A stretch of 64,000 nucleotides of DNA from Bugulina stolonifera (Eukaryota > Bryozoa > Gymnolaemata > Cheilostomatida > Bugulidae). Below, piece by piece: positions 13,292 to 50,536 of this stretch (positions are counted from its first letter, which is position 1; the number at the start of each line of letters is the position of its first letter). The DNA lies in assembly GCA_935421135.1 (NCBI GenBank), contig OW285191.1:2666001-2730000 (forward strand), in the 5' to 3' direction. A model generated the notes under the pieces. It was not told the origin of the DNA. It saw only the letters and a program-made list of their open reading frames with translations, and made no database searches. Position numbers and translations under genes: made by a program.

Positions 13292-16200
13292 TTACTCATC
13301 AGCTCTTTTAATCAATTGGGTGAGGGTGACTGGAGACCAGCCCGTACTTTCCTGGACATAGATCAAACCTCGGTCTATAGAAATATTCATGCTGCCAAAC
13401 TGGTACACCTGTAAATACAATGTACTATGTGTATACTGTGGTGTCACCATCCACAATAACACTATTTATATACGTAATACATGTAGTGCTAGTTGTACAA
13501 TGGATACAATAGCTGAAGTAGCTAAAATCGTTCACCAACAACATCAGCATATGTATGTAATAGCGGACTAGTACTGTACATGTAGAATATGTGTGTATAG
13601 TATAGTATAGTATAGCTGTACCTGACGGGCTTCGTGTGTTTTCCCAGCCACCGGATAGAACTGTAGATTCTGTTCTGCAGCTTTCATCGCAACAAGATCC
13701 CTAAAGCTGTGAGTGACAGCTCCAGCTCCAGAGAGAGGAGGTGCCACAGGCTCATTGTGTCCTTTCCTCTTGGGGTGAGGGAGAGGGGGCGGAGGAGGTG
13801 GTGGGGCAGCTAGTGAGGAGAAGTCTGGCACATTGTTTCTGAAAGTAAGCATGTTATATATGAGTTGTATAATAGTAAACTAACCCATATATGGAAGAGA
13901 GTATAGAATAAAGTAAACATTCCCATATATGGAAGAGAGTACAGAATAAGGTAAACGATCCCATATATGGAAGAGAGTATAGAATAAGGTAAACTAACCC
14001 ATATATAGAAGAGAGTATAGAATAAGGTAAACTAACCCATATATAGAAGAGAGTATAGAATAAAGTAAACGATCCCATATATGGTAGAGAGTATAGAATA
14101 AAGTAAACGATCCCATATATGGTAGAGAGTATAGAATAAGGTAAACGATCCCATATATGGTAGAGAGTATAGAATAAGGTAAACGATCCCATATATGGTA
14201 GAGAGTATAGAATAAGGTAAACTAACCCATATATAGAAGAGAGTATAGAATAAGGTAAACTAACCCATATATCGAAGAGATTATAGGTGGGAGTTGGCCT
14301 GGTATAGGAGGACCTGGGGGAGGCGGAGGTTGCAACGCACTTCCTGGCACCATGACAGGCACTCCTGGGTTACTGAAGGAAGAGTTCATGAGTTTCACAG
14401 CTTGAGCCAGTCGTTCTGAAAGCATAAGAGTGAAGGTGGTGAGTATAGTGAGAGAGTATACATGATACACAAGTATACATTATATTGACAATAGTAGTAA
14501 ATGTAGGACTAATAGGAGAGGCCATCTATTATCAATACTTAGTTCTCTAAAGTGTGAATATGGTACCTTTACATGCATTACTAGTAGGAGTATAACATAA
14601 ACATGCTACTGTTCTCCAGTTATCTCCTTATATACCAGCTTAGTGATTTAGTGCCATGAACAATGATGACCTTACAAGTGTTGTTCATAGCCCACCCACC
14701 CAACATTCTAACGAACACAGAGACTCTTGGTCTACTGAGGCTTGGAATAAAGGCTACAAAATAACATCACACCAGGACAGTAGTTGCTAAGGAATGCACA
14801 TCACAGTTAATACTGGTGACTGCCAACTAACCTTTGACTACCATATGGCTGACAAGTCTCTCTGGAAGCACACTCTTCCAGCCCTTGTACCAGAGTCCAA
14901 CCTCCTCATAGTTGGGGGACGTGTTCAGCCAGTTAGCCAGAGTTCCCAGCCAACGTTGAAAGAAACAGCGCTCTAAGAGAGAGATGAGGATCTGGTCAGA
15001 GAGGAGTTCCTGCCATGCCATCACGGATTTCCAGTTGTCTATGGGAGAGAGAGACAACACAATAACTATAAGCTTACATCATTCTTATACTATGTTATGC
15101 TACAGGTTACATTCACATAACATATCATTTTGAACTGTATTACAATTATCTATCTACTAACCCGAAAGTTCTCCATTAGTTAGTAGACATTCTGCTAACG
15201 ATTTTTAATCACAATCTAACATTTTTACCAAAACACTTCCAACCTCTTTGCTACTACACATAGGATGTATACCTACATGTAATAACAAATGTGTATGACT
15301 CACCCATAACCTGATTGGCTGGGGTAATAACAAGCTCCTGCAGGCACTGAGCTAGCTTTGGTACAATATTCTTAGCAAGAAAAGCCTCCATATGGCCAGG
15401 AGAGAAGACCCTCACCCAGGGTTTTAGCATCAGCATGGCTGATATATCAGAGGGATGCCACTTGTTAAGAGCTGTAGCTAGTTTGTGTCTAATGGGAGCC
15501 CAAAGTGGTTCTAGACGTTGCCCTGTAACACAACAGAAAGTTTGCAAGTTGCTACCAAAGGTAACGATGAGTGAGAAGCTGATAGCACATTGTCTGTTCT
15601 TATGTACATCACTGGGTGGTTCTTGTGGATGCAACTATGGAGTAACAGAAGGAAAAGTACAGTTTACCCATGAGCGGCAGCCAGGGGTGTAGCCAGGCAT
15701 GTATGGGAACGGTGTCAGTCAGGGGGTTCCATTTATCCACCTCCATCTGAAGCTTAGGGTTGATGAGTTGGTCGAGAATATTCTGGAACATCCATGGAGG
15801 TATCAGAGGCATCCAGTTCTCCAGAACTTCTATCAGTGCGTCTGGGTTACGCGTGTTCCACTGGCTTTAGTGCAGAGAAAGGAGTGTTAGTACAATACCA
15901 TTACACCTACGTGTCATAGACATCTGGGTTTATGTGAGATTTGATCAATACTTATAAACATGTCACTCATAAAACAACGATTAGAGGGTATAGCCTACAG
16001 ACAAGCCAATAGCTAGATTTGGGGACTTAGTCTACAGACAAGCCAATAGTTTGATTAGAGGGCATAGTTTACAGACAAGCCAATAGTTTGATAATAACTA
16101 CTATTAGCATCACTAGGAGCCCAGTTACTCACTTGATAGCTGTACGAACTATTGGCATCCAAACATCCCAAATCAATTTTGAATAAGCATTGTGATTGGC

Positions 16201-19200
16201 TGTGCTATCTCCTTGTCTTCTGTCAATATCCAATATGGCCTTCCATTTGGACATAACGTCACAACCTAGAAGAGATCAGAGGTAGGTACACTTGCACCAT
16301 TTCATACAGTATAATTGAATACTAAATGGAACCCGATTCTAATAATAATGACATACAGGATTGTTGGACAAATGGTCATACAAAAACATATATAATTACA
16401 TTGCGCAATGATTCACCATATTCTCAGATATATCTATGAATACAGCACAATACTACTATTATAGCAAATATAACAAACCTAGTGAGGGTTGCGAAAGCGG
16501 CTGCCAGCCAGCAAAGTACTTCTTAAAGAGAGGGAATACGACAGCAATAGATAAGGTCACAAGGTCATACATCCTGTACTCTTCATAATATTCTTCCTGT
16601 AAGGTAAGGAGTAGAGAATAGTCATACGCGTATCAATCTAATATACCAGATAATATAACACAACACACAGTGGGGTGAGTACAACACAACTTGGCAACAT
16701 CTACATGTACATGTAAAGTACTAGTATTTGGTAGAATTTCATTGTTTTATCTCTTTTATTACTATTAGTTTCATGCTATATACTGGAATGAAATATATAG
16801 CAATCATCTGATGATTGCTATATATTTCATTCCAGTATATAGCATGAAACTAATAGTAATAAAAGAGATAAAACAGTGAGATTCTACCAAATACTAATTA
16901 GCTCTGTTGTAAACATTGAGCACTTTGACTGAGATTCAGCAGTGTATAAACACGTGCATTACTCCATAAAATACTAGTATATAACTACTACTTTATATAC
17001 CGCAAACAGTTTCGTAAATAGGATACTTTACCTGCAGTCGTGTGAATAGCTGTGCACACTCATCTAGTCCGAGGGGATGCTCCGCATCCGCCCGGCTTCT
17101 TGTCTCAAATGTGTCGAGTAAGTTAAGTACTTCAGTTAATCTGCTTATCTGCTGGGACTCATGGGAGCACAAGCTTTCCAACCTCTCTGACTCGTGCTTC
17201 ATGTTAACCATCATATCTCTCTCATATCTACATATATGTATATGGAAACAGTAGCATGTGACGGTATGGAAACTGTAGCATGTGACGGTATGGAAACTGT
17301 AGTATGTGACGGTATGGAAACTGTAGTATGTGATGTTATGGAAACTGTAGTATTGATGGTATGGAAACTGTAGTATGTGTTGATATGGAAACTATACCTA
17401 AGCTGTCTATCTTTAGTAATTATCTCCTCCTCTGTCATATCTATAAGCATGTTAATGTTGTGCATGAGCTCCGGCATCTCGAACGCTCTCTTCTCTCCAA
17501 CGTCTGCACTATCTGCGTACATGTCTACCTCATCATCTGAATCATGTTTCTTTGTGGAGATAGCATGGTAACCTAATCAGGTACAAATAGATGCTTTAAA
17601 CAGCACATATTCACCTTTATATCAAATCGTCCCTTAATTATGTATTGCGATTAAATAAATAATTGCGCTTTTTACACGTTAAAGGGGTTATGACATGTAG
17701 TTTATGTCTATATTCATGGCAGCACCTCTTATTTTGGTTTGTTGCATTTGTGCTACTGTAAGCAGAGTTGTGTCCTCTTGCCCATACTTGACTCATTAGC
17801 ACTATTCAATGCTGCTTCAAACGCTACTTTGTTATGAAGACGCAACTCCGTGTTTTATGTCTTATAGAGAAAATTGTTGAATTCAAGCTGTTTGCATAGA
17901 AAGAGTACAGTAGTAAACAAATGATTTCACAGTGTTTACTAATATAGCTGTAGGATAACTTGTGCAAGTTTTTGAATTTTTCCGGGCTTTCCTTTTGCTG
18001 GCAATAACTAGCTGCCTTTATCGGTAGGTCCGGTATTTCATCTGGCCACTATATACGGCGGCTATTATTGCGTTCTTCTATATGCCTATACATTGTGTTG
18101 TGGTCTAGTTGTTCTAAATATAGCCTGGAAGGCACAAACAATAGGATAGTTACAGGACTAGAATAACAAAATATCTAGGCACTCAATATGTTGCGCCACT
18201 ATATACATATGTAGCTGAGTGCGTCTTAATGCTACCGTAAAACACGTGGCATAACCCCTTTAAATCATAAGAAAGAAAAAAAACTCAGCATCAAACTGCA
18301 ATGCAGTCTTAGTACCTGTGAGAACTCTCTGTTCTTTGCCTGTCATATCAATGACCTTGACCTGCGAGTGCTTAGATTTAGTAGTATCTTTGACTTTTCT
18401 CTTTGAACCTCCTTTAGCAATTAGCTGGTCTGCTGTTTTGTAAACATAAGTTGGTTTCTTTGCACCTGAAAGCGGATAGAGGAATATTCACAGCACCATA
18501 ACTGATTAAACACAATAAAATACTTGTGAGCTAGCTGACATGGCAATAAGTAACGGTGTCATCAACTTACCTTGATCCGTTCGCTTCCATCTACTCAATT
18601 CTTCATTAAATTTCTTATCTTCCTCAGCCTCTTCATCTTTCACAGGAAAATCCTTTAGAGATCGCTCAGTGCGCTCAGTACCATAGTAACCTGTTAGATA
18701 AGATCACATAATTATGTGACTACAGGGCCAATCTGTCATAATCCAACAATAGATTAGTCACAACAATACTGCACCTTGTAACATAGGGCAGCAATAACAA
18801 ATACATATTTGGTAGAAGTGTTGACAGATACATGTACCACAGTGCTAGCTCACCTATTGCTCCTTTACCAAGTCTGAGTTTAGCCTCCACAGGTGTAGCT
18901 ATACCTCTGCCATCCTTCCCCAGACCCTCTCCGGGTTTATATCCCATCTTCATGAGTAGAGTGGAACCAATCTTATTTGTATGCTTCTCCCAATCACCAA
19001 TCCTAGAACATGTCATAACGTTGCTGCATTATGAGGGTATGCAGGTATTACGTGTAACTGGTTTTAACCTTGAACTTAGATTGTGTCTGGACATCATGAG
19101 GCTACTAGCTGGTTTTTGAACACCAAGAGCTTCTCTCAGACTGCATTCCTATACATTCTTATGCATCTGCACATTTGACTGTGAAGCTCTTCGTTTAATA

Positions 19201-21100
19201 CAGAGTTAAAGCTTAATCTAGTCACTGATTCACTAGCTTAATTTCAATTTCAATTGTCAATCACAATATACTCACAGCCTAATGCTACTTTATCTGCTAT
19301 TAAAGTGCTATACAGTACTTGACTAATCAAATCACTCATGGCATCTAGTCAAGTAGAAAGTATAGCATAACACAGTCCACACTCACCCTTTAGCAGCAGA
19401 GCTACTACTAGCACCAAAACCTCCTCTTTGTCTACGAGGCTTATTCTGTCGCACTCTGCCAAACTGAGATTGGAGTAGTGGATCAACATCTTCTTCCCCT
19501 TCTTCTTTTTCTGTCCCCTTATTAGATATTGCAGCGGCTTCTTCTTCAGCAGACTTTTTCAAGCCACCACTGACGAAACTTATTGAAGAAGAATAGCTCT
19601 TCTTTCCACTACAGAACAGAATGAGAAACATAGGCTTAGCATTACATCAAATGAAAACGAGCTACTAAGATGACAGGAACAGTGATGAGTTCATTTCAAC
19701 TGAAATCAATCATAATCAGATCTTTCATGGCTGCTAGGTGATTAACCAGAAATTTGAAATTTGGAAAAAGTCCTCCATTCCAAAAAGTCCAATGTACACA
19801 CTTTGAGTTAGCAGAAATCTTAGGCCTACACCATTCTCATCTTTCCACAGTCATGCATCTTATACAAATAGGACTCACTGTAAGACTTACTATAATTGAA
19901 TTTACCCATAAGAGATATATTAGACAGTTACAGAATAATACTGTACATACACACACGTAGGCCTTGAAGTATATATGAATGAATAGGTCAATGTTGCTTT
20001 TTATTTCAAGAGCGGCCAAGTGAAGCATAGGCTACTTGCCAAGGAGCAGAAGCAAAGAATCTGGACTTTTTGACTCAAAATCCCTGGACAAGCACCAAAA
20101 TCCCTGGACATAGTTTGGGTGTACATTATTCGAAGGAAACTTATCACTGAAAACCATCAAATGATCAATTTTAGTGTTATGTAGTGGCTTGTAAGTAATT
20201 TTCTTCAATGTAAATGACTTATTTCAGGTTGTACCTTGTGTTTTAAGAGGTTTGGTAACATTTTCACCATAGATAAAAAATCAGGACAGCTGGAAAATTC
20301 GTAGGGACAGGCACAAAAACCAGGGAGTGTCCTGACAAAATCTGGACACTTGGCAAGTAGCCTATAAAGCGAAGGCTTGTGTACACGAGAGGCCGTGAGC
20401 ATAGGCGGAACATCTTCATTGTTTGTTGGTGCGGTTCCATAGGCTTGTGTACACGAGAGGCCGTGAGCATAGGCGGAACATCTTCATTGTTTGTTGGTGC
20501 GGTTCCATAGGCAATGCATAGTAGGCTACCAGTCTATCAGTGGCCTTGATTAATATTCAACCAATAATCAAAGCTGATTTTTAACCTGACCGCTGAACTC
20601 CGATCATAAGAAAAAAGTTTCCACTGATGAGCCTAATAGTGGTGGCTACCAGAAAGATAATTACAATATTAATTATTATCTTATGATTATTATCACAGAT
20701 AATATATTACAATATTAATAGTGGTGACTACCAGAAAGATAATTACAATATTAATTAGGCCTATTATCTTATGATTATTATCACAGATAACAATCATATT
20801 TATTATCCATTAGGCCTATAATAAATATGAACACACTTCATAATTAATGACAATAGGGCCTATAATATTCTATGTAGTATAAGCGAAGACCAAAAATTAA
20901 TTGATGGCTAGTAAACAGTAAAGCACAGACCTGCCAAAACCGGGTCGAGCATCCCAGTCATCATCCGAATCTCCATCCCCACCAAAGGAGCCATATATTG
21001 CTTGGGCTTTAGTTTGTTTTCTCTGAGGTCTGTTAATGTTAAACTCGTTTTCGTAATCATAATCTGTTATTTCAAACTTTTCAACTTCTGGTGACGACAT
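13292..21100 (-). CDS. TFIP11: Tuftelin-interacting protein 11 (spliceosome disassembly G-patch protein)
   Basis: Fifteen exons join in phase into 846 residues (human about 837): 21100-20931, 19608-19387, 19002-18854, 18690-18571, 18465-18316, 17572-17398, 17227-17032, 16596-16479, 16265-16133, 15864-15668, 15522-15304, 15038-14832, 14415-14265, 13838-13622 and 13408-13292. TFIP11 (yeast Ntr1/Spp382) activates the helicase DHX15/Prp43 to take apart the intron-lariat spliceosome in the nucleus. The N terminus has [13 protein letters not shown] (TIP_N). A G-patch lies near residues 136-182 ([19 protein letters not shown]). The GCFC region includes [29 protein letters not shown] and [13 protein letters not shown], and the C terminus has [10 protein letters not shown]. 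The TTG six bases upstream is in frame, but the ATG at 21100 is the natural start. Exons 13-14 add proline runs. Introns 5, 6, 7 and 13 carry repeats described separately. Confidence 0.95.
13875..14292. repeat. 38-bp minisatellite spanning the TFIP11 exon 13 donor
   Basis: Eleven units start every 38 bp from 13875 to 14255. The last unit overlaps the end of exon 13, and the array fills nearly all of intron 13. On the minus strand five units (1, 4, 5, 10 and 11) keep the ATATGGGTTAGT splice-donor context; the other six have GATC or AATG changes that destroy it. Confidence 0.9.
16722..16896. repeat. 175-bp near-perfect palindrome in TFIP11 intron 7
   Basis: Arms of about 86 bp meet at a 3-nt loop centred on 16809. 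They are almost perfectly complementary, with a few mismatches near the outer ends. TA dinucleotides border both ends, compatible with a Tc1/mariner-type fold-back element. Transcription of TFIP11 would yield a long RNA hairpin. Confidence 0.85.
17240..17397. repeat. 24-bp minisatellite making up TFIP11 intron 6
   Basis: About six to seven imperfect 24-bp units (ggtatggaaactgtagcatg followed by tgac) fill almost the whole 170-bp intron between exon 6 (ends 17398) and exon 7 (starts 17227). On the minus strand most units contain CTACAG, which resembles a 3' splice acceptor. Confidence 0.8.
17683..18259. mobile_element. piggyBac-type MITE in TFIP11 intron 5
   Basis: A 577-bp segment is flanked on both sides by TTAA (17679-17682 and 18260-18263) and begins and ends with inverted AGGGGTTATG / CATAACCCCT. 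A TTAA target with short inverted repeats starting AGG or similar is the piggyBac signature. There is no transposase frame, so it is non-autonomous. Confidence 0.75.
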
Positions 21101-21444
21101 TTCCAAGTTATTGACGCCCTACTACAGGATCTAAATGCACAATTTAATGTTGGATTAACAAATTGAGTCAAAAAAATGTCAACAATCCTTCGCCCGGATA
21201 TCGTTTTAACCGTAGCTGTATTGGAATCGTCAATACTTGCAGCCTCAGAGCTTAGAAAAAGAGAAAAGATTCTTTGCGTGTTTCCTATTATTAATAAGCT
21301 GTTTTGACTCTAGTTGTCTTTGGGCAAAACTTGAATCCACGGCTTTCCCCTCTTCCAAATAAATTGTAAGATAATTCACAAACGGCTGTTTTTATTTGTT
21401 ATGATCATTGCATTTAAATAGAGCTGCAGAACAGAAACCTTAGG
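21101..21444. promoter_or_regulatory. Divergent TFIP11/DNAJC17 promoter region
   Basis: Only 344 bp separate the two start codons, which point away from each other, so both transcripts must start here. No TATA box is obvious at a suitable distance from either ATG, which fits housekeeping genes. I could not identify specific factor sites. Confidence 0.7.
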
Positions 21445-24400
21445 ATGACTTCGTTTGATTATACGAAAGTTGATTTATACGATATTTTAGGAATAGAGAT
21501 TGATGCTACAGAAAAAGATGTTAGTTAGATTTAAGTTAGAGTTACACAGTACATGTCCATGTTCTGTTGATGTAACAGAACAGATAATAATGATATAATC
21601 TGAATTCCTATTACTCTATTAGATCTCGGCCTTCATTGGATTTGATATATCGGTAGTGTGCTGTCGTAATTGACCACATTGAGGCAAAAACACGATCCGG
21701 TTTGATGGAGTAATTTCTACTGACTTCAATAATATAATATATCTTCTAAAATTTCTGTACTAAATAAATTAAAAACTTTTCTTTTAGAGGCAGAATTATA
21801 TTATTGTGAAAATCCATTTTCAATTTGTCAGATAAAAATACATTTTGTGGTCTATATATCTATATTTTGATGTCAATTGAAATGTATTATAATGTAAATA
21901 ATCTGTTCTACATGAGCAATTCAAATCGTTTGTTTTACATGTAGGTATGCCCTCTTAGCAGGATATATACCGGTGCTTGTGTTTCTCTTTAACTTCAATT
22001 CCAAATTTTCCATTTCCAAATAGCGTTGAAAAGCCACTAGTGCTTCGTTATATGCTAACGTTTTTCCACGACGATTAATGTTGACCCTCAGTCGGTTAGA
22101 TCATGATGTTGTGTAGCCTCTTCACTGCTGTCTGAACAAATTATATAGCCTAACTATCATCAATAAGTGATTGGGTTTCCTATTCCCTGGTTATGGGATT
22201 TCACCAGCGAGAATAGCGATTCCCTAGTCCTAACCCTGATCATAGGATAGCAACTAAGTAGTCATTATTACACTAATAGAGTGGCACTGACTTTGAGCTA
22301 GAGTTTATGTAGTGAACCTCTTGATTGATGAAATTGGTCTAATAAGTCAAATAAAAAATTTTGGTAGTCCTAAATAAATCATCGAACATTAAACCGTAGG
22401 TATTAGTGATTGTTATGTTAACTATGGTATAATATGGTAACTATTATAATTACCATCTCCAGGTTATAAAAGCTTACAGAAAGAAAGCACTGAAATATCA
22501 TCCCGACAAAAATCCTGATCCCTCAGCAGTAGAAATATTCCATAAATTATCTAAAGCTTTAGAAATTCTCACAGATGAACGGGCAAGGGTAAGTACCCTT
22601 CACTTGTGTAAACACGATATAATATTCAATTATTCTAGCGCGATAGGCCTCATACAATAGATTGTAATTATTTTTCATTTTGGTTGCTGTTCTGTCATAT
22701 CTAAGATAACATGCACAACTTTGTATGCATAGGCCTAAGCACTAACTTATAATCGCACCTCTCTATTTGGTATAAAACACTGAGAATTAACCTAATAGGT
22801 CCTATGTATTTTTCCAATTTTTTGTTCTTGCAGGCAGCTTATGATAAAGTACTCAAAGCCAGGGCAGCCGCACAGGTTCGGCATAGACAGCTTGATGCTA
22901 AACGTCAAAAGTTGAAAGAAGGTAAAGCTGTTGCGTACAATCGGATCCAGTTTCCCTAATGTTGAACATATATACATTGGACACACTATTCTACATCATT
23001 GTTTAGCCTGTTATAGGCTACACTCCTCTTCTTATATAGTATAATGTATAGTTTTGTATCTTAGATTTGGATGCCAGAGAACAGGCTGTCTCTTCTGAGC
23101 AGCAGAAGAAAACACAAGCCAAGAATCTGCAAGCAGAAGTGGAGCGGTTGAGGAGGGAAGGTAGCGCCCTTCTACAGAGAGAACAAGAACTGTTTAGGGA
23201 ACAATTGGCTAAGCAAGCAGAAGAGCAAAGACTGCGCTCTACTCCAGGTGATTATACAAACAACATTATCTGTGTTGAAAGCTATAGGTTTTTATAATCT
23301 AAAGGGTTTGGGAATATATCGATGAGAGAATCAAGTTGATTGAACATTTGAGAATTAAATGGTGTAATAGGCTATCGCATTAGTATTCTTTATCAGTAGC
23401 TATCAGACAGCACTAAGTGGAGAATCTACATTTGCATCCCCCTTGCTGTTGTATAACTTGTGTTACCTGTCCTTATGTAGAGGAAGTTGAGCCAATCGTA
23501 TTGAAACTGAAGTGGAAATGTTCCAAGAGTGACACAAATAATGGTGGATATAATAAGGAGGTGATCACGTCTATATTTAGCAAGGTAACATATTCATATA
23601 ACCTTGATGGTCTTTGTACAAGCATTTATAGAGTCCCATGTGCGGATTCTGACTGTTATAAACTCTGTATATATAAATTATTAGTACACTTACATGTACT
23701 ATTTATCTTGTAGTATGGTGATGTAGCTAATGTGATACTTGGATCTAAAAGAAATGGCACAGCTGTGTTGGAGTATAAGCGTCCATCAGCTAATGTAAGT
23801 ATACACATTCTATACGTCATACACAGAGCTGTCTATGGGTTGCTATACACTGTTAGTCTGCGAGTCGATTTTAAAGTTATCCCCTCTTACTCAGTAAGAG
23901 TAATGTGAACACAACTCCATGTACACAATTCAACCACTTGTATGATTGAGTGTTAATTACTCAACTGATATAAACTTTATCTGATGTTCTGACTACAGCT
24001 GTAAGTTACAGAAATGAACACCCAAGCTTGCGATCCTTCAATCCTGAATAGTCTAAACTCTTGGAATATTTGACCTAATTAATCGGTTCCATGTTCTAAT
24101 CTAGAAGGAAATATTCTGAATACTTGCTGGCCAGAATAGGCCCAGGAGCTTGTTGATGGCCGACTATGACAGACTCTAACTGACAGCTATCATCAGCTGC
24201 TTCCTTTTGTTACAGTTACAGTCTGTGGAAAATGAAAGAGGTCTGTCATCCTGCCCTCTGGTGGTGAAATGGATGAGTGGTAAACCGTCATCTTCTGCTG
24301 CTGCTGACCTGTCTAACTTTGCTGACCATTCCGCTGTCCCACTAAGTTCGCAGGTGTGTAGGGTATATACATACTATAATACAGTACATACCATATATCC

Positions 24401-26434: not shown

Positions 26435-29400
26435 TTAATAGTCATAAATATAATATGGGTCTCTCCTCTTTTTTCTGACTCTACCCCTACTGCTCACGCA
26501 CACTCCATTCTCCCTGGCATTACACTCTAACTCACTGTCATTGGTCAGACCTGTCTCTTCCCCAGCCTCCTTTTCTTTATTCACTATCGATGTCTCATCC
26601 CTCTTCGACTCCTCTTGCGTTCTCAACCTTAGGTGAACTCTAGACCTCCGCAGAAGCCTGCCGTTTACTTCAACCCAGTAACTGTATGGCTCCTCTGCTT
26701 TGTATCTCACCACACCAGGCCTGCTAGGATCTTTGTGATCCCTCTTCACCCACACCAGGGTCCCCTCCTCTAGATCCGGCATTTTGACAGCTCTGTGGCC
26801 TCTGTCAAAATCACGTTTCTGTCGCTCTTTCAGGCTTGTGTCTCTAATCTTAAATCCTTCCCTATCTGGTACCCTGTCTCCTACGGCCCTAAGCCTGGGG
26901 ATCTGATTCCTCAGCTTCCTACCCATCATCAGCTCATCCGGTCTGTATAAGCTCTCCAGTGGCGTAGTCCTATAAGCTAAAAGAGCCACCAGCTTATCCT
27001 TCTCTTTCCTCCACATAGTCTTCACTGTTTCCACCGCTCTTTCTGCCATCCCATTGCTTTGATGATAGTGTGGGCTACTGGTCTCATGTGTGATTGCGTA
27101 TTCTGACATCAAGTCTCTCCATTCCCTTGAGATGTAACACGGACCGTTATCTGACCGCATTTTCTTCGGCGCCCCGAACCTAGCTATCAATGGCCTGAAT
27201 TTCTTGACCAGGTGCTCCCCTGTCTGGCTATTCATTTCAGCTGTCTCTATCCACCGTGAGTAGTAATCGACAAAGAGGGCATACCACTTTCCCTCAAACT
27301 CAAACAAATCAGTGCCTACCTCTTCCCAAGGCCCTTCTGGCAGTACACTGTTACTGACTGGTTGATATTGCATCCTTTGGTTACAAATGCATCGATTACA
27401 GGTCTCTATCATGTCCTTCACTTCCCTATTCAGTGCAGGCCACCACACTGTGTCTCGGCTTCTCCTAACCGTCTTCACTATACCTTGGTGTCCACTGTGC
27501 AATTTCTTCAACATGTCTCCTCTCATACTGAGAGGGATGTATATCCTAGAATTCATGGTCACCAACCCATCCACTAAACTCAGGTGATCTGCATTAACCC
27601 TCACTTTCCTCACCTCCGGAGACGGATTTTGAGGCCAAGTTCCCTCAATGCCTTTCACTATATCCTGATAATCCTTATCAATCGTTCCGGATCTCCTGAC
27701 TTCCTCTAAGGAGATATCTGTAATGGCATTAATATAAGTACTCGCATGCATCTCCACCCTCTGCACCTTCACTATTTCCTTTCCTGAGGGTGGCCTTGAC
27801 AGAAGATCAGCGATGAACATTCCAGTCCCCGGGGTGTGAAAGATACTATAATGGTATCGCATTAGTCGCATCTTAAATCTTTGTATCCTTAACGGCAAGT
27901 CAGACAAGTCTCTGCTACCCAACAGCGGTATCAATGGCTTGTGGTCGGTCTCTATCTCAAACGACCTTCCTACCAAGTAAAAGTCAAACTTCTCGCAAGC
28001 CCATGTGATCGCTAATGCTTCCTTCTCTATCTGTCCGTACCTCTTCTCTGTCTCTGTCAACTTCCTCGAAGCATACGCCACTGGCTGCCATGAACCGTCT
28101 GTAGCTTCCTGGAGTAGAGCCGCTCCCAACGAATGTGCACTAGCATCTGCAGTCACACGGTGGCTTTTGCTATAGTCAAATAATGCTAGTATGGGGGATT
28201 TTGCAATCGCCTCCTTGACTTTATCAAAACTTTCTTGCTGTCTATACGTCCAACACCAATCATTCTTCTTCTTCTCTAGCTCTCGCAGTGGCAGCTCTAT
28301 CTCTGACAGCAGCGGACTGTACCTCCCCAAGTAGTTTACCATCGCCAAAAACCTCTTTAAACCCTTTAGATCTGTGGGGGCCGGCATCTCCCGGATAGCC
28401 CGTTCTTTCTCTGGATCCACTCTGATGCCTTCATCGCTCACTATATGTCCAAGAAACTTCACTTCTCTTACCCCAAACTCACATTTATCTTTGTTTAACG
28501 TCAATCCAGCCTTCTGCAGTTTAACCAACACCTCACCTAATCTCTCATCATGCTCCTTTTTTGACTTACCGACCACCAAAATGTCGTCCATCATACACAC
28601 TACTCCTTGACTATCTCCCAATATCTTGCACATCTGTCTTTGAAAAAATTCCGGCGCTGCCGAGATACCAAACGGCATCTTGCAGTATTGATACCTACCA
28701 AAAGGTGTGATGAATGTAGTATACTCCCTAGACTCCTCATCCAGCCTTATCTGCCAAAATCCGGAGTTGGCGTCCATCTTGCTGAAATACCTGCTACCTT
28801 CCAACGATGCCATAGTATCTTCCAATCTCGGCAGAGGAAAGTGCTCTCTTCTCACACTCTTGTTTAGTTGTGTCAAATCTACACATAGCCTCACCTTCCC
28901 ATTCGACTTTGGAGCAACTACCATGCCTGAGCACCATGTGGTTGGCTTCTCTACCTTCACTATCACTCCCATCCGCTCCATACGCTCTAACTCCACCTTC
29001 GTGGCCTCACACAGACCAATAGGTACTCTTCGCGGTACGCTCAGACATAAAGGGACTGCACCTTCCTTCAAATTTATTTTAAACACATCTGGCAGCACCC
29101 CTAGGTCTCCAAACAGCTTCGGGTATCTGGACTGGATTTCTTCCTCAACCAATCTGACAGTTTTTACTAGGTTAAGTTTTCTCACCTCAGGTTTGCCGAG
29201 CAAATTGCTCTTCCCTCCTTTCATTACGTAAACTGTGCTAACCACCTCTTGTCCCCAGGATGATATTAAAGACAATTTCATTTTTCCTATCACATCTAGT
29301 ACGCTTCCATCAGCTCCCGTGAATATCCTGCCTGTTTTTAATATTTCTTGACCTACTTTTTTTGCTGTCTGTGTGGTAATAACAGATACGTCTGCCCCCG

Positions 29401-29482
29401 TGTCAACAAGGAATTTTACAATTTTCCTACCACATCTTAAGCTAATATCAAACTCTTTATCTTTATTTTTCCTTGTTCCTAG
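26435..29482 (-). mobile_element. Ty3/Gypsy retrotransposon pol (protease-RT-RNase H-integrase)
   Basis: The frame runs open from just after the gag UGA (29483-29485) to a stop at 26435, about 1,015 codons, with no ATG of its own. In order: aspartic protease (LVDTGADVSVI), reverse transcriptase (VRLCVDLTQLNK, FSKMDANSGFWQI, VVCMMDDILVVG), RNase H (TADASAHSLGAAL, ITWACEKFDFYL), an HHCC zinc module (HSGHQG ... CNRCICNQ), an integrase DDE core (GTDLFEF, RSDNGPCY, HHQSNGMAE-type segment) and a GPY/F-like C terminus. The polymerase box reads MMDD in place of the usual YxDD. No chromodomain and no envelope gene are visible. With PR-RT-RH-INT order and an intact frame this is a young element, but the absence of a 3' LTR means this copy could not complete a normal cycle. 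Confidence 0.93.
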
Positions 29483-29485
29483 TCA
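29480..29485 (-). promoter_or_regulatory. Gag-pol UGA with CUA readthrough context
   Basis: On the minus strand the gag stop is TGA immediately followed by CTA (then G), and gag and pol share one frame. UGA-CUA is a well known leaky-stop context in several viral and cellular mRNAs. Readthrough would give the Gag-Pol fusion without a frameshift. Confidence 0.7.
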
Positions 29486-30517
29486 CAATGATTCTTCCGA
29501 ATCGCTGAAGTGCCTGCTGACTGCATGTATATGTGCTTCACCCCTATAACTATCCCTTCCTCGACCACTCACTGTTTTAGGACATTCCCTAATGAAGTGT
29601 GGGCCACCGCATCCAAAACAGCCGCCTGTTCCCGGGGCCATCCTTGATTTTGGGCAATCCTTCATCATGTGATCACCACTGCACACAAAGCAACCTCTGC
29701 CTCTACCCTTGCCTGGTCCGCTTCTACCTCTAAAACCTCTTTGGCCTCTGTAATTACCGCCGCCTCTACTATTGTAAGTGTAGTTCTGTCTAAAGTTTCC
29801 CACTCTGTCAATTGAACCTGGTTCCTCCCTTTCTTCCTGTACTGCTGGCTGGCCTTCGACTCTATCTATTTCCGGTTTCCTTGTAGACCCCTCATCCCTA
29901 TATTTTGAAATAATGCGGGAGGCTGTCTTTGCTGACTCATGCCTCAGGCATACTGATTTTACTTTGTTTGAGTCTAAGTCTTTCTTCCCTAGTAACTCAC
30001 ACCTAATTTTGTCATTGGTCATCCCTTTTATTATTGTCTGGACTATCATAGCATCTGTGAGAGAACCCCAACGACATGTTTTCGCTGACCTCTCCACTCT
30101 TTCTATAAACTTATCCACCCTTTCCTCTGCACTCTGCACTATGCTCAAATATCTGTGTCTTGTTGCCACAATGTTTTCTTTCTCTTCAAAGTGAGCTGTG
30201 AAACCATCTTTTAGGTCCTCATACTGCATCGTTTCTATATCCGTGTTCCATGATTCAAAGATGTCCATCCCTGTTTCCCCCATGCTATCTAGCAGCAGTG
30301 CAGCCTTCCTGTGCTCTATTTCAAACTTTGCCTCTGCCTCTTTAGCCCCTTTGTCTTTTGTCTTTGGGCCCGTACTCTCTTTATGCCTCAGACCCGCTCC
30401 AATCACCGCTATCTCAAATCTTCTGATAAACTTATTCCACCCCTCTAATTCTGCTCCATGTTCTATAACTAACTGGGGTGTACTAACACCTTTGCCGAAT
30501 TTTAAATTGTTATCCAT
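29483..30517 (-). mobile_element. Ty3/Gypsy gag with two zinc knuckles
   Basis: A 344-residue frame from an ATG at 30517. Its N-terminal half is a helical capsid-like region (FEIEHRKAALLLDSMGETG, VQSAEERVDKFIERVER). An RGG-rich linker near residue 250 precedes two zinc knuckles, CFVCSGDHMMKDC and CFGCGGPHFIREC. Both have CX2CX3HX4C spacing, one residue shorter than the common CX2CX4HX4C. It ends with SDSEESL and a UGA. The pol frame continues in the same reading frame straight after the stop. Confidence 0.9.
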
Positions 30518-30700
30518 CCTCGTGACTACTTAGCTCTATTTCCTTTTAATCACTTTCACTTCTCTATCACTCTGACTCGCCACTAGACTAGGACTACTAC
30601 TAGGCCTATTATTCAACTCTCCAAACGCAACTTACGAATCACTTTACTTTTCAAAGCACTCTATTACCTATTAACCGACGTAACGTTATCCTCTGGTTTA

Positions 30701-31925: not shown

Positions 31926-32216
31926 GTTTAACACAAAACAATTTTGAAAATGATTGTTTAGGTTTTAGTGAAATCTTTAATTTCCCATAAATGAATTACT
32001 ACTACATTGCAAGCTACTTCGTGCGTCAATACTGCATGATTGTTCTAATTTTTATGATGTCGTTGGGTGAATTGTTTAAATAACCGGCATTCATAGATAG
32101 AACAAGACGTCTTGTACTACAACATATGGCTGAAATTGCTTTAAGTCAAAGCTCAGCTCCCTGGAGGAGAAAATAAAAGCGAAACTTACTCAAAGTGCTG
32201 GCATCTAAAAGATACT

Positions 32217-34595
32217 ATGGGTGGCACACAACTGTTGCGGCGTGCATTTAGCGCTTCTAAGGAAGTTGCATTCGAAATGATTGGTTACAATTCAAGCCTA
32301 AAAGAAATCTACAAAATACACATCTACTCTAGTGAAGGTAACTTTACAGGTGCTGCTTCATTGCTGGTAGACACAGAGAAGAAAGTGATCAACGTGTATC
32401 TAAAAGCTGCAGGTCACCATGTTAGCAAGGTTTATACAATTGTTGGAGATCTGAATGACCGAGAAGGAGCTGTAGTATTATTACAAGGAAAAAAACAGGT
32501 ACGCCTGGCTGAAATAAGCCAGAAAACAGCGCATTATGTTAAACCAGGGGATAAACATTTTATCATAGCAAGTAATATGCGTGAAGACAGGAACTTGCTT
32601 CTTGAATTCACAGGAAAGTTTTCTTTGGGATCTGGGAAAATTCCATCAGAACTCACCAAGGGTCACAGATTTCAATTTGCTGAAAAGTTTAAGGAAATTA
32701 CATTTAGTGGCCAACTGATAACCATGTTACTCTTGTTTCTGAATTACTATTCTTTGAGCGATTTAAAAAATCAAATTGCGAAGCCTACAGAGATAAAAAT
32801 TCAAGATGTATATTTTGGACCCCTCTCACAGCTATCTACATATGATGACATCACAATAACGAAGTCTGACGATGAATCAGGTTCTCAGTGGTACCATGTT
32901 ATAGAGACAAAAGGAGGACAACTCCTTGCTTACATAGAACTGTTAGGAGGACCAATAACAAAATCATCTAGATTTATGAATGTTTTTGATAGTGACAGGA
33001 GATATATATTCAACGTAGTTGGTAAAACATTTAAAAACTGTAAGATATACTGTGGACAACAGCAAATAATGAGCAATCGCTTTTCCCGGTATCATACCAT
33101 GATAACAGATACTGAAATTGATATGTACCCTGAAACACACGTGCCCTACTTAAAATTCTACCAAAACCAAGTAAACGCTCTGCTAGCAGTTGCACATGGC
33201 TGTAAAACCGATGACGAAAGTATTCGCATTCGGTTTCAACATAATCTTATCAAGCCTGAACCGGAAGAATTTGCTGCTTTTATCACTACTTGTATGTTTT
33301 ACTGTAGCTTAGGATATATGAAAAAGGCAACATCATATCTTTCCCAAGTATGCTCTTTAAGAGGACCAAGAACAGCGAGTAATAGTTCTATCTTAGAGAG
33401 ATATGCTTCTATACTAGAAGGCATGAGTAAGAATGAGAGAAAGCTAATAAGGAAACAAGGTGAATACTGTCTGTCAGCTAATCTGGACCGACCTTTTAAG
33501 CAGAGATTACCAAAGAGATGGAGCCAACCTGACAACCATTCTTCACAGAACTCAACACCTTCATCAGGATCTGACATACTCAAACCAATGCTCTTACACC
33601 AGCAACCTACTCCCATAACTACTCTCAGCTCTAGCAGTACATCACTACCACCTAATGGTTCAAATGAAGTTGACCTGCTTCCAACCACTGAATCTACTTA
33701 TAACTACAGTGCATCGTTAAGAGTTCTTACAGAAGCGGCACCACCGCAATACATGTATGCAGAAAATAATATATTACCCAGATATCCCCATCAAATTCAA
33801 CCATTTTTACCTAATGACCACTACACCAACACAGCCCACAACTCCAATAGCTATTCACCACTTCAACTTCAGCTATCACCATTTACTCAAACACAAAGCT
33901 CCTATCCTGTCCAACTGCCACATTCAACTAATGTGCTCATGGCGCCTGGGCAACATCTGGACACATCCCAATTCTATCACAACTACCCTTTCACCAACAC
34001 AGGGCATTTTCCTAGTAGCCCAAATCCAGTCGTACCTCAGCTATCACCATTTACTCAAACACAAAGCTCCTATCTGGCCCAAGTGCCACATTCAACTAAT
34101 GTGCTCATGGTGCCTGGGCAACATCTAGACACATCCCAGTTTTATCACAACTACCCTTTCACCAACACAGGCCATTTTCCTGGTGGCCCAAATCCAGCGC
34201 TACCCCAGTTATCACAGTTTACTCAAAGCTCCTATCTGGCCCAAGTTCCACATTCAACTAATGAACTTATGGCTCCTGGGCAACATCTGGACATATCCCA
34301 ATTAAACCCCAACTACCCCTCCACCAACATAGGTAACTTTTCTGGTGACCCAGTTCCAGCTCTACCTCAGCCATCACCTTATGCCCCAATCGAGAGTTCC
34401 CTTGGATTCCAGCTGCCACAACTTGGTCATGATATAATGACTCCGGCACGACAGACTCAGCAGCAACTGCCTGAATCTGAAACACATCAAGCTTCTCAAC
34501 CAGTCAATTTCTGTTCTCAGCAGGTGGCCCCATCCCAACCTGCACAGGAACAAAAACCACTACTTCTCGCATTGCAATCACTGAATCTTGATTAG
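32217..34595 (+). CDS. Intronless protein of unrecognised family (paralogue 1, 792 aa)
   Basis: A single open frame from the ATG at 32217. I do not recognise the family. Residues 1-430 form a conserved core shared with the protein at 52.0 kb. Shared blocks include VGDLNDREGA (IGDLNDYRGA in the paralogue), LLLFLNYYSLSDLKNQI, YLKFYQNQVNALL and EPEEFAAFITTCMF. The core looks like two beta-rich halves (about 20-155 and 200-330) and a helical end. A weak likeness of the second half to scramblase/LURP-one folds is only a guess. Residues 440-792 are rich in Pro, Gln, Ser and Thr, and hold three 54-56-residue tandem repeats from about residue 553 (LSPFTQTQSSY ... GQHLDTSQFYHNYPFTNTG). No signal peptide. 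AATAAA at 34748. Being intronless among intron-rich genes suggests a retrocopy or a mobile origin. Confidence 0.75.
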   Translation: MGGTQLLRRAFSASKEVAFEMIGYNSSLKEIYKIHIYSSEGNFTGAASLLVDTEKKVINVYLKAAGHHVSKVYTIVGDLNDREGAVVLLQGKKQVRLAEISQKTAHYVKPGDKHFIIASNMREDRNLLLEFTGKFSLGSGKIPSELTKGHRFQFAEKFKEITFSGQLITMLLLFLNYYSLSDLKNQIAKPTEIKIQDVYFGPLSQLSTYDDITITKSDDESGSQWYHVIETKGGQLLAYIELLGGPITKSSRFMNVFDSDRRYIFNVVGKTFKNCKIYCGQQQIMSNRFSRYHTMITDTEIDMYPETHVPYLKFYQNQVNALLAVAHGCKTDDESIRIRFQHNLIKPEPEEFAAFITTCMFYCSLGYMKKATSYLSQVCSLRGPRTASNSSILERYASILEGMSKNERKLIRKQGEYCLSANLDRPFKQRLPKRWSQPDNHSSQNSTPSSGSDILKPMLLHQQPTPITTLSSSSTSLPPNGSNEVDLLPTTESTYNYSASLRVLTEAAPPQYMYAENNILPRYPHQIQPFLPNDHYTNTAHNSNSYSPLQLQLSPFTQTQSSYPVQLPHSTNVLMAPGQHLDTSQFYHNYPFTNTGHFPSSPNPVVPQLSPFTQTQSSYLAQVPHSTNVLMVPGQHLDTSQFYHNYPFTNTGHFPGGPNPALPQLSQFTQSSYLAQVPHSTNELMAPGQHLDISQLNPNYPSTNIGNFSGDPVPALPQPSPYAPIESSLGFQLPQLGHDIMTPARQTQQQLPESETHQASQPVNFCSQQVAPSQPAQEQKPLLLALQSLNLD
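33873..34400 (+). repeat. 168-bp in-frame tandem repeat in paralogue 1
   Basis: Units start at 33873, 34041 and 34209 (168 bp each, 56 codons), and a partial fourth starts at 34371 after a 6-bp shorter third unit. All length changes keep the frame, consistent with a translated product. Confidence 0.85.
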
Positions 34596-36391: not shown

Positions 36392-37000
36392 TTAATAACT
36401 GTATTTGAATTCAGTAGGCTTTTCTAAATTATGGGGACTTTTACGCTGGTAGTCACATGCTGTGCACTTGTATGGATTCTTTCTGCCATGATCTAGTATT
36501 TGATGTCTTTCCCGACTTGATTTAAATCTGAACCTGGAACCACATTCTTTACAGAGATGAGATCTCCTGTCAAGGTGTTTCCTCATGTATCACCTTCCTT
36601 TGGGCACTCATTACACCTGAATGCTGTCTCTCCAGTGTGTATTCTCAGATTTTTTTTGAGATTAATTCTAAGATTACAGATTGTAGTTCGGTAGATACAT
36701 ACAGTGCACTAACTTGTATGGATTCTTGTAAACATGATTTCGCACATGCTCTTTTAGCTCACCTTCAGTTACATACTTAGCTTTGCAGTATGCACAGCTA
36801 TAAGGTCTCTCTCCAGTATGTATTCTCATAATATGATCCTGAGGAATTTGATGTAGCGTACTAGAGTAATTGCAGTAGGAACACGTCCTGTACTTCTTGT
36901 ATTTCTTTGGTTTCACAGATTTATCCATGTTTGCATTGGTGGTTTGCTCAGTATTTGCATCTTTGATACCTTTGGTGCCACGTTCATAACAGGTTGTCAT
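36392..37000 (-). pseudogene. C2H2 zinc-finger gene remnant
   Basis: The first block (from about 37000) has two C2H2 fingers, TCSYCNYSS ... HIMRIH and YSCAYCKAKYVTEGELKEHVRNH. A frameshifted block has the linker LRIHTGETAFRCNECP. A third block (36586-36392) has CKECGSRFRFKSSRERHQILDH and CTACDYQ. The GSRFRFKSS finger matches finger 5 of the intact gene at 49.1 kb (GARFRFKSS), so the two are paralogues. Stops and frameshifts show this copy is dead. Confidence 0.8.
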
Positions 37001-37693
37001 ATTGGATTTCCAGCGACTACTGGAGGGGTCGTCGACTCAGCGGACCATTGCTCTACTTCAGGGGTCACTCCACCTTTCTCCTCGTCGCAGCCAGTGTCAC
37101 ACTGACTGGGGGGACACTTCCATGGGATTTGCGTCACCTGTAAGCACAGATTCAGTAATCAGAACACCCTGCACAGAAGACTGAACGGTACCATTTTCAT
37201 CCGTCCGCAGGAAATGGCCAGGAGAAGGCATAACCCTCCTCTTTAGTTTACCTACGAACTTCGGAGTGAGTGTGCATTCTACAACCGTGGTAAATACTGA
37301 ATCAGGCACAGTGTTCTTCCCTGAAGCTTCAAAGTCGTTGGTGACAGGGCCGTCGGAGGTAGCCCAAGTCTGGACTACTACTCACCCTACATACCCTCTG
37401 AGAACTGAGGTTCTCAGATACGGGTCTTGTAGGAGTATGTAAGGTAGCAGCCAGGCTTTAGAGTGAGGAATTCAACAGCACAGACGACCTACTGTCTAAC
37501 CTAGGGCCGTCTATTGATTTACATGTATCTAGCTCCAGAGAAGCCAGCTCATCCCATAACTCACCGTGAGAATTCATACTTTCTTCCAAGGTGAATGTAG
37601 TACAGCTACAAGGTTTAGAATTCTCCGGGATAGCACATGTTGACTCAAGGCAAAATGTCTGAGGACAACATGTGCATGAGCGGAAATGAGTGG

Positions 37694-45417: not shown

Positions 45418-45641
45418 GGTACTTGCTCTCACCAACATTTTCCAACATAAAATACATGTAGGAACCTGGCAGTCTCACCCTACACTGATTCCATATTGGC
45501 ATTATATAATATAGATGTACATGTATATGTACATGTATATGCACTGAGACTGTTGCTACTAGTATAATTATAGCAACACTCAATAATGGGCCAATTGTTG
45601 TTGGTTCTGATGATGAAGTGGTATAATTTCCATTGAAGGAC

Positions 45642-48544
45642 ACACATCATATACATCATATACATCATACACATCATATACATCATACACATCATGCACG
45701 GCATACACATCATATACATCATATACATCATACACATCATATACATCATACACATCGTATACATCAGATACATCATACACATCATATACATCATATACAT
45801 CATATACATCATATACATCATATACATCATACACATCATGCACGGCATACACATCATATACATCATATACATCATACACATCATACACATCATACACATC
45901 ATATACATCATACACATTATACACTGATACACATCATACACTGATACACATCATATACATCATACACATCATATACATCATACACATCATATACATCACA
46001 CACATCATACACATCATGCACGGCATACACATCATATACATCATATACATCATACACATCATATACATCATACACATCATATACATCATATACATCATAC
46101 ACATCATACACATTATACACATCATACACATCATACACATCATACACATTATACACATCATACACATCATATACATCATATACATCATATACATCATATA
46201 CATCATATACATCATATACATCATATACATCATATACATCATATACATCATATACATCATACACATCATATACATCATATACATCACATACATCATACAC
46301 ATCATACACATCATACACATCATACACATCATATACATCATATGCATCATACACATCATATGCATCATACACATCATACGCATCATACACATCATACACA
46401 TCATATACATCATATACATCATACACATCATATACATCATATACATCATATACATCATACACATCATATACATCATATACATCATATACATCATACACAT
46501 CATATACATCATACACATCACACGCATCAGATACATCATACACATCATACACATCATATACATCATACACATCATATACATCATATGCATCATACACATC
46601 ATATACATCATATACATCATACACATCATACACATCATACACATTATACACATCATACACATCATATACATCATATACATCATATACATCATATACATCA
46701 TATACATCATATACATCATATACATCATATACATCATATACATCATATACATCATACACATCATATACATCATATACATCACATACATCATACACATCAT
46801 ACACATCATACACATCATACACATCATATACATCATATGCATCATACACATCATATGCATCATACACATCATACGCATCATACACATCATACACATCATA
46901 TACATCATATACATCATACACATCATATACATCATATACATCATATACATCATACACATCATATACATCATATACATCATATACATCATACACATCATAT
47001 ACATCATACACATCACACGCATCAGATACATCATACACATCATACACATCATATACATCATACACATCATATACATCATATGCATCATACACATCATATA
47101 CATCATATACATCACATACATCATACACATCATACACATCATACACATCACATACATCATACACATCATACACATCATATGCATCATACACATCATACAC
47201 ATCATACACATCATACGCATCATACACATCATACACATCATATACATCATACACATCATACACATCATACACATTATACACATTATACACATCATACACA
47301 TTATACACATTATACACATCATACACATCATATACATCATATACATCACATACATCATACACATCATACACATCATACACATCATACACATCATATACAT
47401 CATACACATCATACACATCATACACATCATATGCATCATACACATCATACACATCATACACATCATACGCATCATACACATCATACACATCATATACATC
47501 ATATACATCATACACATCATATACATCATATACATCATATACATCATACACATCATATACATCATATACATCATATACATCATATACATCATACACATCA
47601 TACACATCATACACATCATACACATCATATACATCATATACATCATATACATCATACACATCATACACATCATATACATCATACACATCATATACATCAT
47701 ATACATCACATACATCATACACATCATACACATTATACACATTATACACATCATACACATCATATACATCATATACATCATATACATCATATACATCATA
47801 TACATCATATACATCATACACATCATACACATCAGATACATTATATACATCATATACATCATACACATCATATACATCATACACATCATACACATCATAC
47901 ACATTATACACATTATACACATCATATACATCATATACATCATATACATCATATACATCATATACATCATACACATCATATACATCATACACATCATACA
48001 CATCAGATACATCATATACATCATATACATCATATACATCATATACATCATATACATCATATACATCATATACATCATATACATCATACACATCATACAC
48101 ATCATATACATCATATACATCATATACATCATACACATCATACACATCATATACATCATATACATCATATACATCATACACATCATACACATCATACACA
48201 TCATACACATCATATACATCATATACATCATACACATCATATACATCATACACATCATACACATCATACACATCATACACATCATATACATCATATACAT
48301 CATACACATCATACACATCATATACATCATACACATCATACACATCATATACATCATATACATCATATACATCATATACATCATATACATCATACACATC
48401 ATATACATCATATACATCATACACATCATACACATTATATACATCACACGCATCAGATACATCATATACATCATACACATCATATGCATCATACACATCA
48501 TATACATCATCATATACATCATACACATCATATACATCATATGC
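45642..48544. repeat. 2.9-kb 9-bp satellite (acatcatay)n with higher-order duplication
   Basis: More than 300 units of a 9-bp motif, acatcatac or acatcatat. Variants such as atgcatc, cacacgcatcagatac and acattatac are scattered through it. Marker variants at 46147, 46341 and 46521 recur exactly 495 bp later (55 units), so about 46120-46615 was duplicated as a block. Because the unit is a multiple of three and lacks stop codons in most frames, it gives very long meaningless open frames on both strands (VYD, CMM, HHT and IIH repeats). I do not call any of these a gene. Confidence 0.97.
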
Positions 48545-49148
48545 ACAAAATATCTCATATGCATACAGCACCCTGTTCTTTGGAATGGGAAACACATTCT
48601 AGACAGCATGTGCAATCATAGATTTAATGCTTCCTTCAAGTGGTGTTCGTTCTATAGACATTATGTCACTTTCACTAGTGAATCATGCAAATTCATTGGC
48701 ATAATTATTATGGCATGATATTGAACACACAAGACAAGAATTGATATTACTGACAGAATGATGTAGTGTAGGTTTTAGTTCACAAAGCCTTGCTCATTAT
48801 TGTGGGAAAATACTTCATAAAATTAGGAAATCAGTGATATTAAAGTAAAATACAGAGTAGATGCTGCAGTTTATCTGTCTTGACTAAACATACGGCAGAA
48901 AAATACAGAGTAATGCTTTGATTAGTAATGGACTAAACTTGCATGAAATACAGAAATTCACCCCTTTGGTTTCATCCTATACCATTATGGCTACTATCTC
49001 AGATGTATGCAGGACTCCAATAGCCATAAATCCACAAAACTCAAAAATTTAATGTGCTTTTAAAATACTACATGTACATGTCTACGTAGACGTGTTCTCT
49101 TTTTCTTGAGAAAAATAGAAGCTTTTAAAGGTTGTTTCCAGCATTCAT
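48545..49148. other. Spacer between satellite and zinc-finger gene
   Basis: AT-rich, nothing recognised. It should include the zinc-finger gene's 3' UTR. Confidence 0.4.
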
Positions 49149-50192
49149 TTATGGATATATCGTTACATTCCTTATGAGTATGGGAGCTCTAGCATGTTTA
49201 ATCTTAATGTGTCTCACTAGGTCTACAGAGCTGCTACACTGGTAGTCGCACTCTGAGCACTGATAGGGCTTCTTGTTGCCATGAACCACCAAGTGATGTC
49301 TACGCCAACTCGATTTAAATCTAAACCTGGCACCACAATCTGTGCAAACAAAGGGTCTATTTCTAATGTGTTTCTTCATGTGTCGCCTGAGGTCGCCATT
49401 TCGTGTGCATCCATAGTAACACCTGCTACACACGTACGATGCCGCTTTAGTATGTTTTTTCCTATGGAGAGCAAGATTAGATTTTCGGTTTGTCTGATAG
49501 GAGCACATTGTACACCTGAGCAACTTTAGTTCTGTATGATTTCTTGTATGCTCTCGTACCTCCCCTATAGTAAGATACTTGTCGTCGCAGTGTATACAGC
49601 TATAAGGCCTTACACTAGTAGGCTTATGTTTATTTATGACATGATCCTTAAGGTCTTTATACTGTTTACTAAAAAAATTGCAGCTTAAGCACTTGTACTT
49701 TTTTAGTCTTATCGAATCATTTACGTCAGCATTCACACTATTGTGGTTGCCAGAACTAAGATTGGTGCCCTTTATAGCAATCCCTTTTGCTTTAGAGAAG
49801 TTCAATTTTGTACTAGTGTCATCAATATTTTTTGCGTCATCAGTTTGCTCTACATCAATGTCCTTCTTGCGTCTTTTCTGATCCGATTCATCAACATGAT
49901 GGCCACTCTGATCACCTTCTCTCTCATAGATGCGTTTGACTCTACAACCTCTCGCACTATTGCCTTCTAAACCATTGCCTCCTACACCAACGCTTCCCAC
50001 ATTAACACCTTCCATATGGGTACTTCTCACATCAGCACCTTCTAAATTAATAACTACCATATCAGTATCCTCCACATTAGTAACTACCATATCAGTATCC
50101 TCCACATTGGTAACTACCATACCAGTATCCTCCACATTAGTAACCCTCCTATCGGTAACTTCCAAATCAGTGCCTTCCACAGTAAGTTCCAT
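49149..50192 (-). CDS. C2H2 zinc-finger protein, six fingers, intronless (347 aa)
   Basis: A single open frame. The first ATG is at 50192 (MELTVEGTDLEV); an in-frame TTG upstream is not a likely start. Residues about 10-60 hold four to five copies of a ten-residue VTNVEDTDMV repeat. A basic KRRKK stretch could be a nuclear signal. Six consecutive C2H2 fingers occupy the C-terminal half, from CLSCNFFSKQYKDLKDHVINKH to CSECDYQCSSSVDLVRHIKIKH. All have CX2C X12 H X3-4 H spacing. No linker fits the TGEKP consensus. It probably binds DNA in the nucleus; the target is unknown. It is a paralogue of the dead copy at 36.4 kb. Short inter-finger spacing and linkers resemble REST/CTCF-like polydactyl proteins, but no orthology is claimed. 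Confidence 0.85.
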   Translation of the reverse strand: MELTVEGTDLEVTDRRVTNVEDTGMVVTNVEDTDMVVTNVEDTDMVVINLEGADVRSTHMEGVNVGSVGVGGNGLEGNSARGCRVKRIYEREGDQSGHHVDESDQKRRKKDIDVEQTDDAKNIDDTSTKLNFSKAKGIAIKGTNLSSGNHNSVNADVNDSIRLKKYKCLSCNFFSKQYKDLKDHVINKHKPTSVRPYSCIHCDDKYLTIGEVREHTRNHTELKLLRCTMCSYQTNRKSNLALHRKKHTKAASYVCSRCYYGCTRNGDLRRHMKKHIRNRPFVCTDCGARFRFKSSWRRHHLVVHGNKKPYQCSECDYQCSSSVDLVRHIKIKHARAPILIRNVTIYP

Positions 50193-50536
50193 GCTAATAT
50201 CAATATGAATGACCAATGGGAGCTCCCAACAGATATTTACTTTGTAATGATTTATCCCTCTGAATTAAGTCTGTCCAACATGTTCCACTTGTGCTTTTCC
50301 AATTCAATATTACACAAAGTGCACTGTGACAGATATAACATGAGTCATTCGGATGCTATCAAAATGCTACAGTAGCTTTGAGGTTTGCTTAGAAAGATAC
50401 TTGTATTTAGTGCTTTCATAAATGTGGGATAACAAGCTGCAAGGTACAAATCTCTTTCTCACACAACTGCTATAAATTATTGATGCCAGTTCTTAATTTA
50501 TACTGTACCCATCAAACACCAACATTTTATTACTAT

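Follow-up and report, generated by a model that had tools for sequence, protein, structure and literature searches.

Head-to-head genes, which lie next to each other on opposite strands with their 5' ends facing, are common in animals. Divergent pairs less than 1 kb apart are reported to include 31.6% of the genes of Drosophila melanogaster and more than 10% of those in human, and for Amphimedon 11,379 of 40,122 gene models have been placed in close divergent pairs. In Drosophila and human, the genes of such pairs are reported to be more highly correlated in expression and to have functions in common. The other described system that bears on this work is the yeast NTR complex of spliceosome disassembly, formed by Ntr1/Spp382 and Prp43 with Cwc23, and the solved entry 5y88 contains both Cwc23 (chain T) and Spp382/Ntr1 (chain U). 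Here we describe a locus of the cheilostome bryozoan Bugulina stolonifera at which the genes for the counterparts of these two yeast proteins, DNAJC17 and TFIP11, stand head to head. It lies in a stretch of 64,000 nucleotides of contig OW285191.1 (positions 2,666,001 to 2,730,000), hereafter the window, whose own numbering is used throughout.

We consider it likely that this is a lineage-restricted pair, made by rearrangement and sharing one open promoter region, in which the partnership of the two proteins is most likely coincidental. There is no evidence that the partnership caused the pairing, and the locus adds a new case to a very common type of arrangement. It resembles animal bidirectional pairs with starts less than 1 kb apart in its opposite strands, its facing 5' ends, its start codons 344 base pairs (bp) apart and the absence of a TATA match from the gap between them, as scanned with 12 consensus patterns. 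Unlike conserved bidirectional pairs, the TFIP11/DNAJC17 pair is absent from Watersipora. The encoded proteins resemble the yeast complex in matching Spp382 (5y88_U) and Cwc23 (5y88_T), and they differ from it in that the DNAJC17 found here carries an RRM, matched to that of human DNAJC17.

Arrangement of TFIP11 and DNAJC17

The pair and the gap between its start codons are made up as follows.

13292..21100, minus strand: TFIP11 (tuftelin-interacting protein 11, or STIP; counterpart of yeast Ntr1/Spp382), spliced model with 15 coding exons, 846 amino acids
20931..21100, minus strand: first coding exon of TFIP11, followed by the donor GTCTGT; 87.5% identity to Watersipora residues 1-56
21101..21444, no strand: gap of 344 bp between the start codons, read from the sequence; putative shared (bidirectional) promoter with both 5' leaders
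21445..21519, plus strand: first coding exon of DNAJC17, followed by the donor GTTAGT; 87.5% identity to a Bugula neritina fragment over 24 residues
21445..24730, plus strand: DNAJC17 (counterpart of yeast Cwc23), spliced model in frame with 8 coding exons, 312 amino acids

Both gene models, rebuilt by hand, are complete from ATG to stop, with GT..AG ends in 21/21 introns and every junction in frame. The TFIP11 ATG is at 21100-21098 on the minus strand and that of DNAJC17 at 21445-21447 on the plus strand; in-frame stops 21 bp upstream of the former and 30 bp upstream of the latter close the two frames. The genes are adjacent, on opposite strands and with their 5' ends facing, and so form a divergent pair. 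The interval 20931-21519 consists of the first coding exon of each gene and the gap.

The TFIP11 product carries the domains of the TFIP11/Ntr1 family, namely TIP_N (PF12457), G-patch (PF01585) and GCFC (PF07842). It matches human TFIP11 (chain 8ro2_TF) at E=1.1e-236 and yeast SPP382 (5y88, chain U) at E=4.3e-8. Across the genome TIP_N was matched once and GCFC four times, three of these in TFIP11 and one on contig C7. The best full-length match listed was a TFIP11-like protein of Watersipora subatra, with 74% identity in the search table and 73% by direct comparison; a TFIP11 fragment of Bugula neritina is closer (87.5% over 152 residues).

The DNAJC17 product combines an N-terminal J domain (PF00226), in which the HPD motif can be read, with the C-terminal RRM expected of the family. 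The RRM was recognised at residues 165-247 by their match to 2d9o, the structure solved for this domain of human DNAJC17 (E=5.3e-21), although the Pfam RRM model PF00076 gave no hit at E<=0.001. CWC23 of 5y88 (chain T) is matched by residues 25-103 at E=2.4e-8. The genome holds a single DNAJC17 locus: 19 matches were obtained, those at 90-97% identity number 8 and all fall in the window, and the 11 elsewhere reach 35-58%, within the J-domain part. A Watersipora subatra DNAJC17-like protein was again the best full-length match listed (55% identity in both the table and the direct comparison), with a Bugula neritina fragment closer at 83.7% over 123 residues.

A first-pass annotation of this DNA had named both genes and given their orientation, spacing and completeness; the spliced models, Pfam and the structure matches confirm all of this. 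It had also implied a sponge host, which is not borne out, as both proteins are closest to bryozoans. A comparison of synteny in sponges, cnidarians and choanoflagellates was dropped because both proteins pointed to Bryozoa. Its remark that it knew of no description of the pairing agrees with our searches, which found no paper naming both DNAJC17 and TFIP11 (the other gene names covered were Cwc23 and Ntr1). No paper was found joining DNAJC17 with a bidirectional promoter, and TFIP11 co-occurred with that term only in unrelated senses. DNAJC17 appears in none of the 15 papers listed, out of 477, for head-to-head gene literature.

Several repeats were observed within TFIP11. Intron 7 holds a near-perfect 87-nucleotide inverted repeat (16722-16896; arms 98% complementary, 1 nucleotide between them), possibly an element of the foldback or miniature inverted-repeat transposable element (MITE) type. 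Intron 1 contains a 68-bp tandem duplication, its two copies matching at 100% (20373-20512). Two minisatellites adjoin exons: one at 13875-14286 (38-bp unit, 10.8 copies) begins at the end of exon 13, and another at 17240-17393 (24-bp unit, 6.4 copies) begins just past exon 6.

The gap between the start codons

With the start codons only 344 bp apart, a shared promoter is the natural reading of the gap, and TFIP11 and DNAJC17 probably share a promoter region there, as the anatomy of the locus suggests. On the same anatomical ground the two genes are predicted to be, probably, co-transcribed. A public Bugulina poly(A) RNA-seq run is listed as ERR10123683.

The composition and motifs of the gap are no proof of a promoter. 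Its guanine-plus-cytosine (GC) content, 0.36, is not raised relative to the window (0.382), and 66% of 344-bp windows are equally GC-rich or richer. The observed/expected ratio of CpG is 0.81 vs 0.47 in the window, a value reached by 11% of 344-bp windows. Scanning with the 12 consensus patterns gave one CCAAT match, one AP-1-like match and four weak initiator-like matches, the last all on the minus (TFIP11) strand; the scan is uninformative. Repeat scans reported neither a tandem array nor a long inverted repeat in the gap, and an Rfam scan of the window gave 0 matches at the gathering threshold.

The spacing itself is not rare. If genes are placed at random in a genome of 235 Mb, 1.6-10.9% of them are estimated to have a divergent neighbour within 344 bp, over nine combinations of assumed gene number and gene length, and the published animal rates for pairs less than 1 kb apart are higher than this estimate. 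It is a striking and unusual coincidence for the neighbours to be counterparts of two proteins that are partners in yeast. No honest p-value can be attached to it, because it was picked from many possible features.

Linkage of the two genes in other animals

Linkage was read from the size of the longest contig encoding each protein match, among the best 120 of 674, 215 and 2108 matches; the contig size may be that of a different protein in the same 90% cluster, as for Ostrea TFIP11 with its 57 members. In Watersipora subatra, where each cluster has one member and one contig, the contig that encodes DNAJC17 measures 66,617,907 bp and the one that encodes TFIP11 66,307,180 bp. The Watersipora genome note (tzWatSuba1.1, Table 3) gives 66.62 Mb for chromosome 5 and 66.31 Mb for chromosome 7. 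Because the contig sizes equal those of the two chromosomes, DNAJC17 is on chromosome 5, TFIP11 is on chromosome 7 and the genes are unlinked. The first-pass annotation had suggested that a shared promoter could keep the two partners in step, and had named an unlinked pair in close relatives as the outcome that would speak against this. Watersipora shows that outcome. By the annotation's own test, the idea that the pairing was kept because of the partnership is therefore not supported, with later selection within the Bugula group left as an improbable reading.

A hand count among the matches listed found 17 species with a contig size for both genes. The genes were on different contigs in 16/17 and on the same one only in Tubulanus polymorphus (1/17). 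Both contigs exceeded 10 Mb in 11 species, with different contigs in 10/11 (Watersipora, Liolophura, Owenia, Oedothorax, Ptychodera, Clavelina, Sinanodonta, Patiria, Ostrea and Anabrus) and again the same contig in 1/11 (Tubulanus). Ylistrum, Lottia, Candidula, Diadema, Mytilus and Bugula, with shorter scaffolds or mixed assemblies, all have the genes on different contigs and are not informative. Gryllus bimaculatus, whose J-protein match is named a DnaJC5 homolog and whose sizes differ, and Lytechinus pictus, for which no contig is given, were excluded before the count. The human genes are also unlinked, TFIP11 being on chromosome 22 and DNAJC17 on chromosome 15. The pair was not found in Watersipora or in the other nine species with different contigs over 10 Mb.

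In Bugula neritina a contig of 63,532 bp carries the DNAJC17 fragment (P0248; 126 amino acids, including the first Met), and one of 16,910 bp carries the TFIP11 fragment (P0241; 167 amino acids, from the GCFC part). The features that match the two fragments lie about 5 kb apart in the window, and a scaffold break between the short Bugula contigs is possible.

Explanations for the pairing, and the surrounding sequence

The first-pass annotation had leaned on the binding of Cwc23 to Ntr1/Spp382 in yeast. Both yeast counterparts are indeed present in 5y88; a contact between DNAJC17 and TFIP11 in animals was not found in the structure matches or the human interactome paper. The human TFIP11 entry 8ro2 is not among the best 60 of 67 DNAJC17 structure matches, and no animal structure with both proteins occurs among the matches listed. 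In a term search of the main text of the human DNAJC17 interactome paper, TFIP11, DHX15 and Ntr1 are absent; two human papers term DNAJC17 the Cwc23 ortholog. By analogy with yeast, DNAJC17 and TFIP11 may bind each other directly in animals. The co-evolution of 'disassembly interologs' is reportedly the subject of a 2019 paper, to go by its title.

In the explanation that we favour, a chromosomal rearrangement would have placed two housekeeping splicing genes 5' to 5'. One open promoter region would then drive outward transcription of both, with some co-expression, as is usual for divergent pairs. The functional relation of the products would most likely be a coincidence or, at the most, have slightly favoured the arrangement, without being its cause. 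Extensive rearrangement of bryozoan genomes is described in the genome paper on Flustra foliacea, and because divergent pairs are common and these genomes are rearranged, new neighbour pairs are to be expected. Several points weigh against this explanation. The same paper also draws syntenic links between five cheilostomes, so that gene neighbourhoods have not been broken up everywhere. Closer relatives than Watersipora exist, and a pair that was already old in the Bugula-Flustra group and was lost in Watersipora alone would not be young. In the nemertean Tubulanus polymorphus, the only same-size case of the 17 species, the two matches (P0014 and P0139) are both on a contig of 32,063,560 bp, which may reflect chance or an old chromosome-scale linkage; one shared chromosome in 11 species would be unsurprising if each has at least 10 chromosomes. 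The gap is not GC-rich, and an intron in the 5' untranslated region (UTR) could move the start of either gene elsewhere, so that the shared promoter is putative.

Selected co-regulation, with the shared promoter kept to balance the dosage of two partners in the Prp43/DHX15 disassembly complex, would fit the joint presence of Cwc23 and Spp382/Ntr1 in 5y88 and the correlated expression and shared function reported for divergent pairs in Drosophila and human. However, the two proteins manage unpaired in Watersipora, where the genes are on different chromosomes, and on the different contigs of 10/11 species above 10 Mb, and the structure matches and the interactome paper yielded no animal contact; we regard selection of this kind as unlikely. 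The gap could instead contain two separate promoters, close together by chance, with one or both acting on their gene across a 5'-UTR intron. AG dinucleotides that could serve as acceptors lie upstream of each ATG, the GC content is ordinary, and none of the 12 patterns marks both strands, the initiator-like matches being confined to the minus strand and accompanied by only one CCAAT and one AP-1-like match. Against this, 344 bp would leave little room for two insulated promoters, and the CpG observed/expected ratio of the gap exceeds that of 89% of 344-bp windows, so we hold separate promoters to be distinctly unlikely. A more specific proposal is that rearrangement in the Bugula group made a shared promoter for the disassembly J-protein and the G-patch factor, since kept by selection for matched dosage, as a recent operon-like coupling; this we judge quite improbable. 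A wrong join of TFIP11 and DNAJC17 in the assembly is improbable in the extreme. Nothing was found to favour it, the 344-bp gap has no reported array or long inverted repeat, and the assembly is apparently a HiFi and Hi-C one with a quality value (QV) of 55.5.

Elsewhere in the window, a Ty3/Gypsy-type retroelement (26435-30529, minus strand) follows the stop of DNAJC17 at a distance of 1.7 kb and has two long open frames, one gag-like (PF03732) and the other with protease, reverse transcriptase, RNaseH and integrase. Two open frames on the plus strand, at 32145-34595 and 51998-53377 (816 and 459 amino acids from stop to stop), share 37% identity over 470 positions; neither matched a Pfam family at E<=0.01, and they form a local family of their own. 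At 45617-48718, simple-repeat sequence extends over about 3 kb and is open in 5/6 frames; its long open frames do not represent genes. C2H2 zinc-finger coding sequence was seen on the minus strand at 49149-50264, over the Pfam cut-offs, and more weakly at 36674-37036, below them.

If selection has kept the pair, it would be a clean and recent case in which physical partners came to be co-regulated by way of gene order. For now, the locus is mostly a caution. A single annotated relative at chromosome scale sufficed to leave no case for conservation of the pairing throughout the order, and where a genome is rearranged, functionally related neighbours call for a comparison of synteny.

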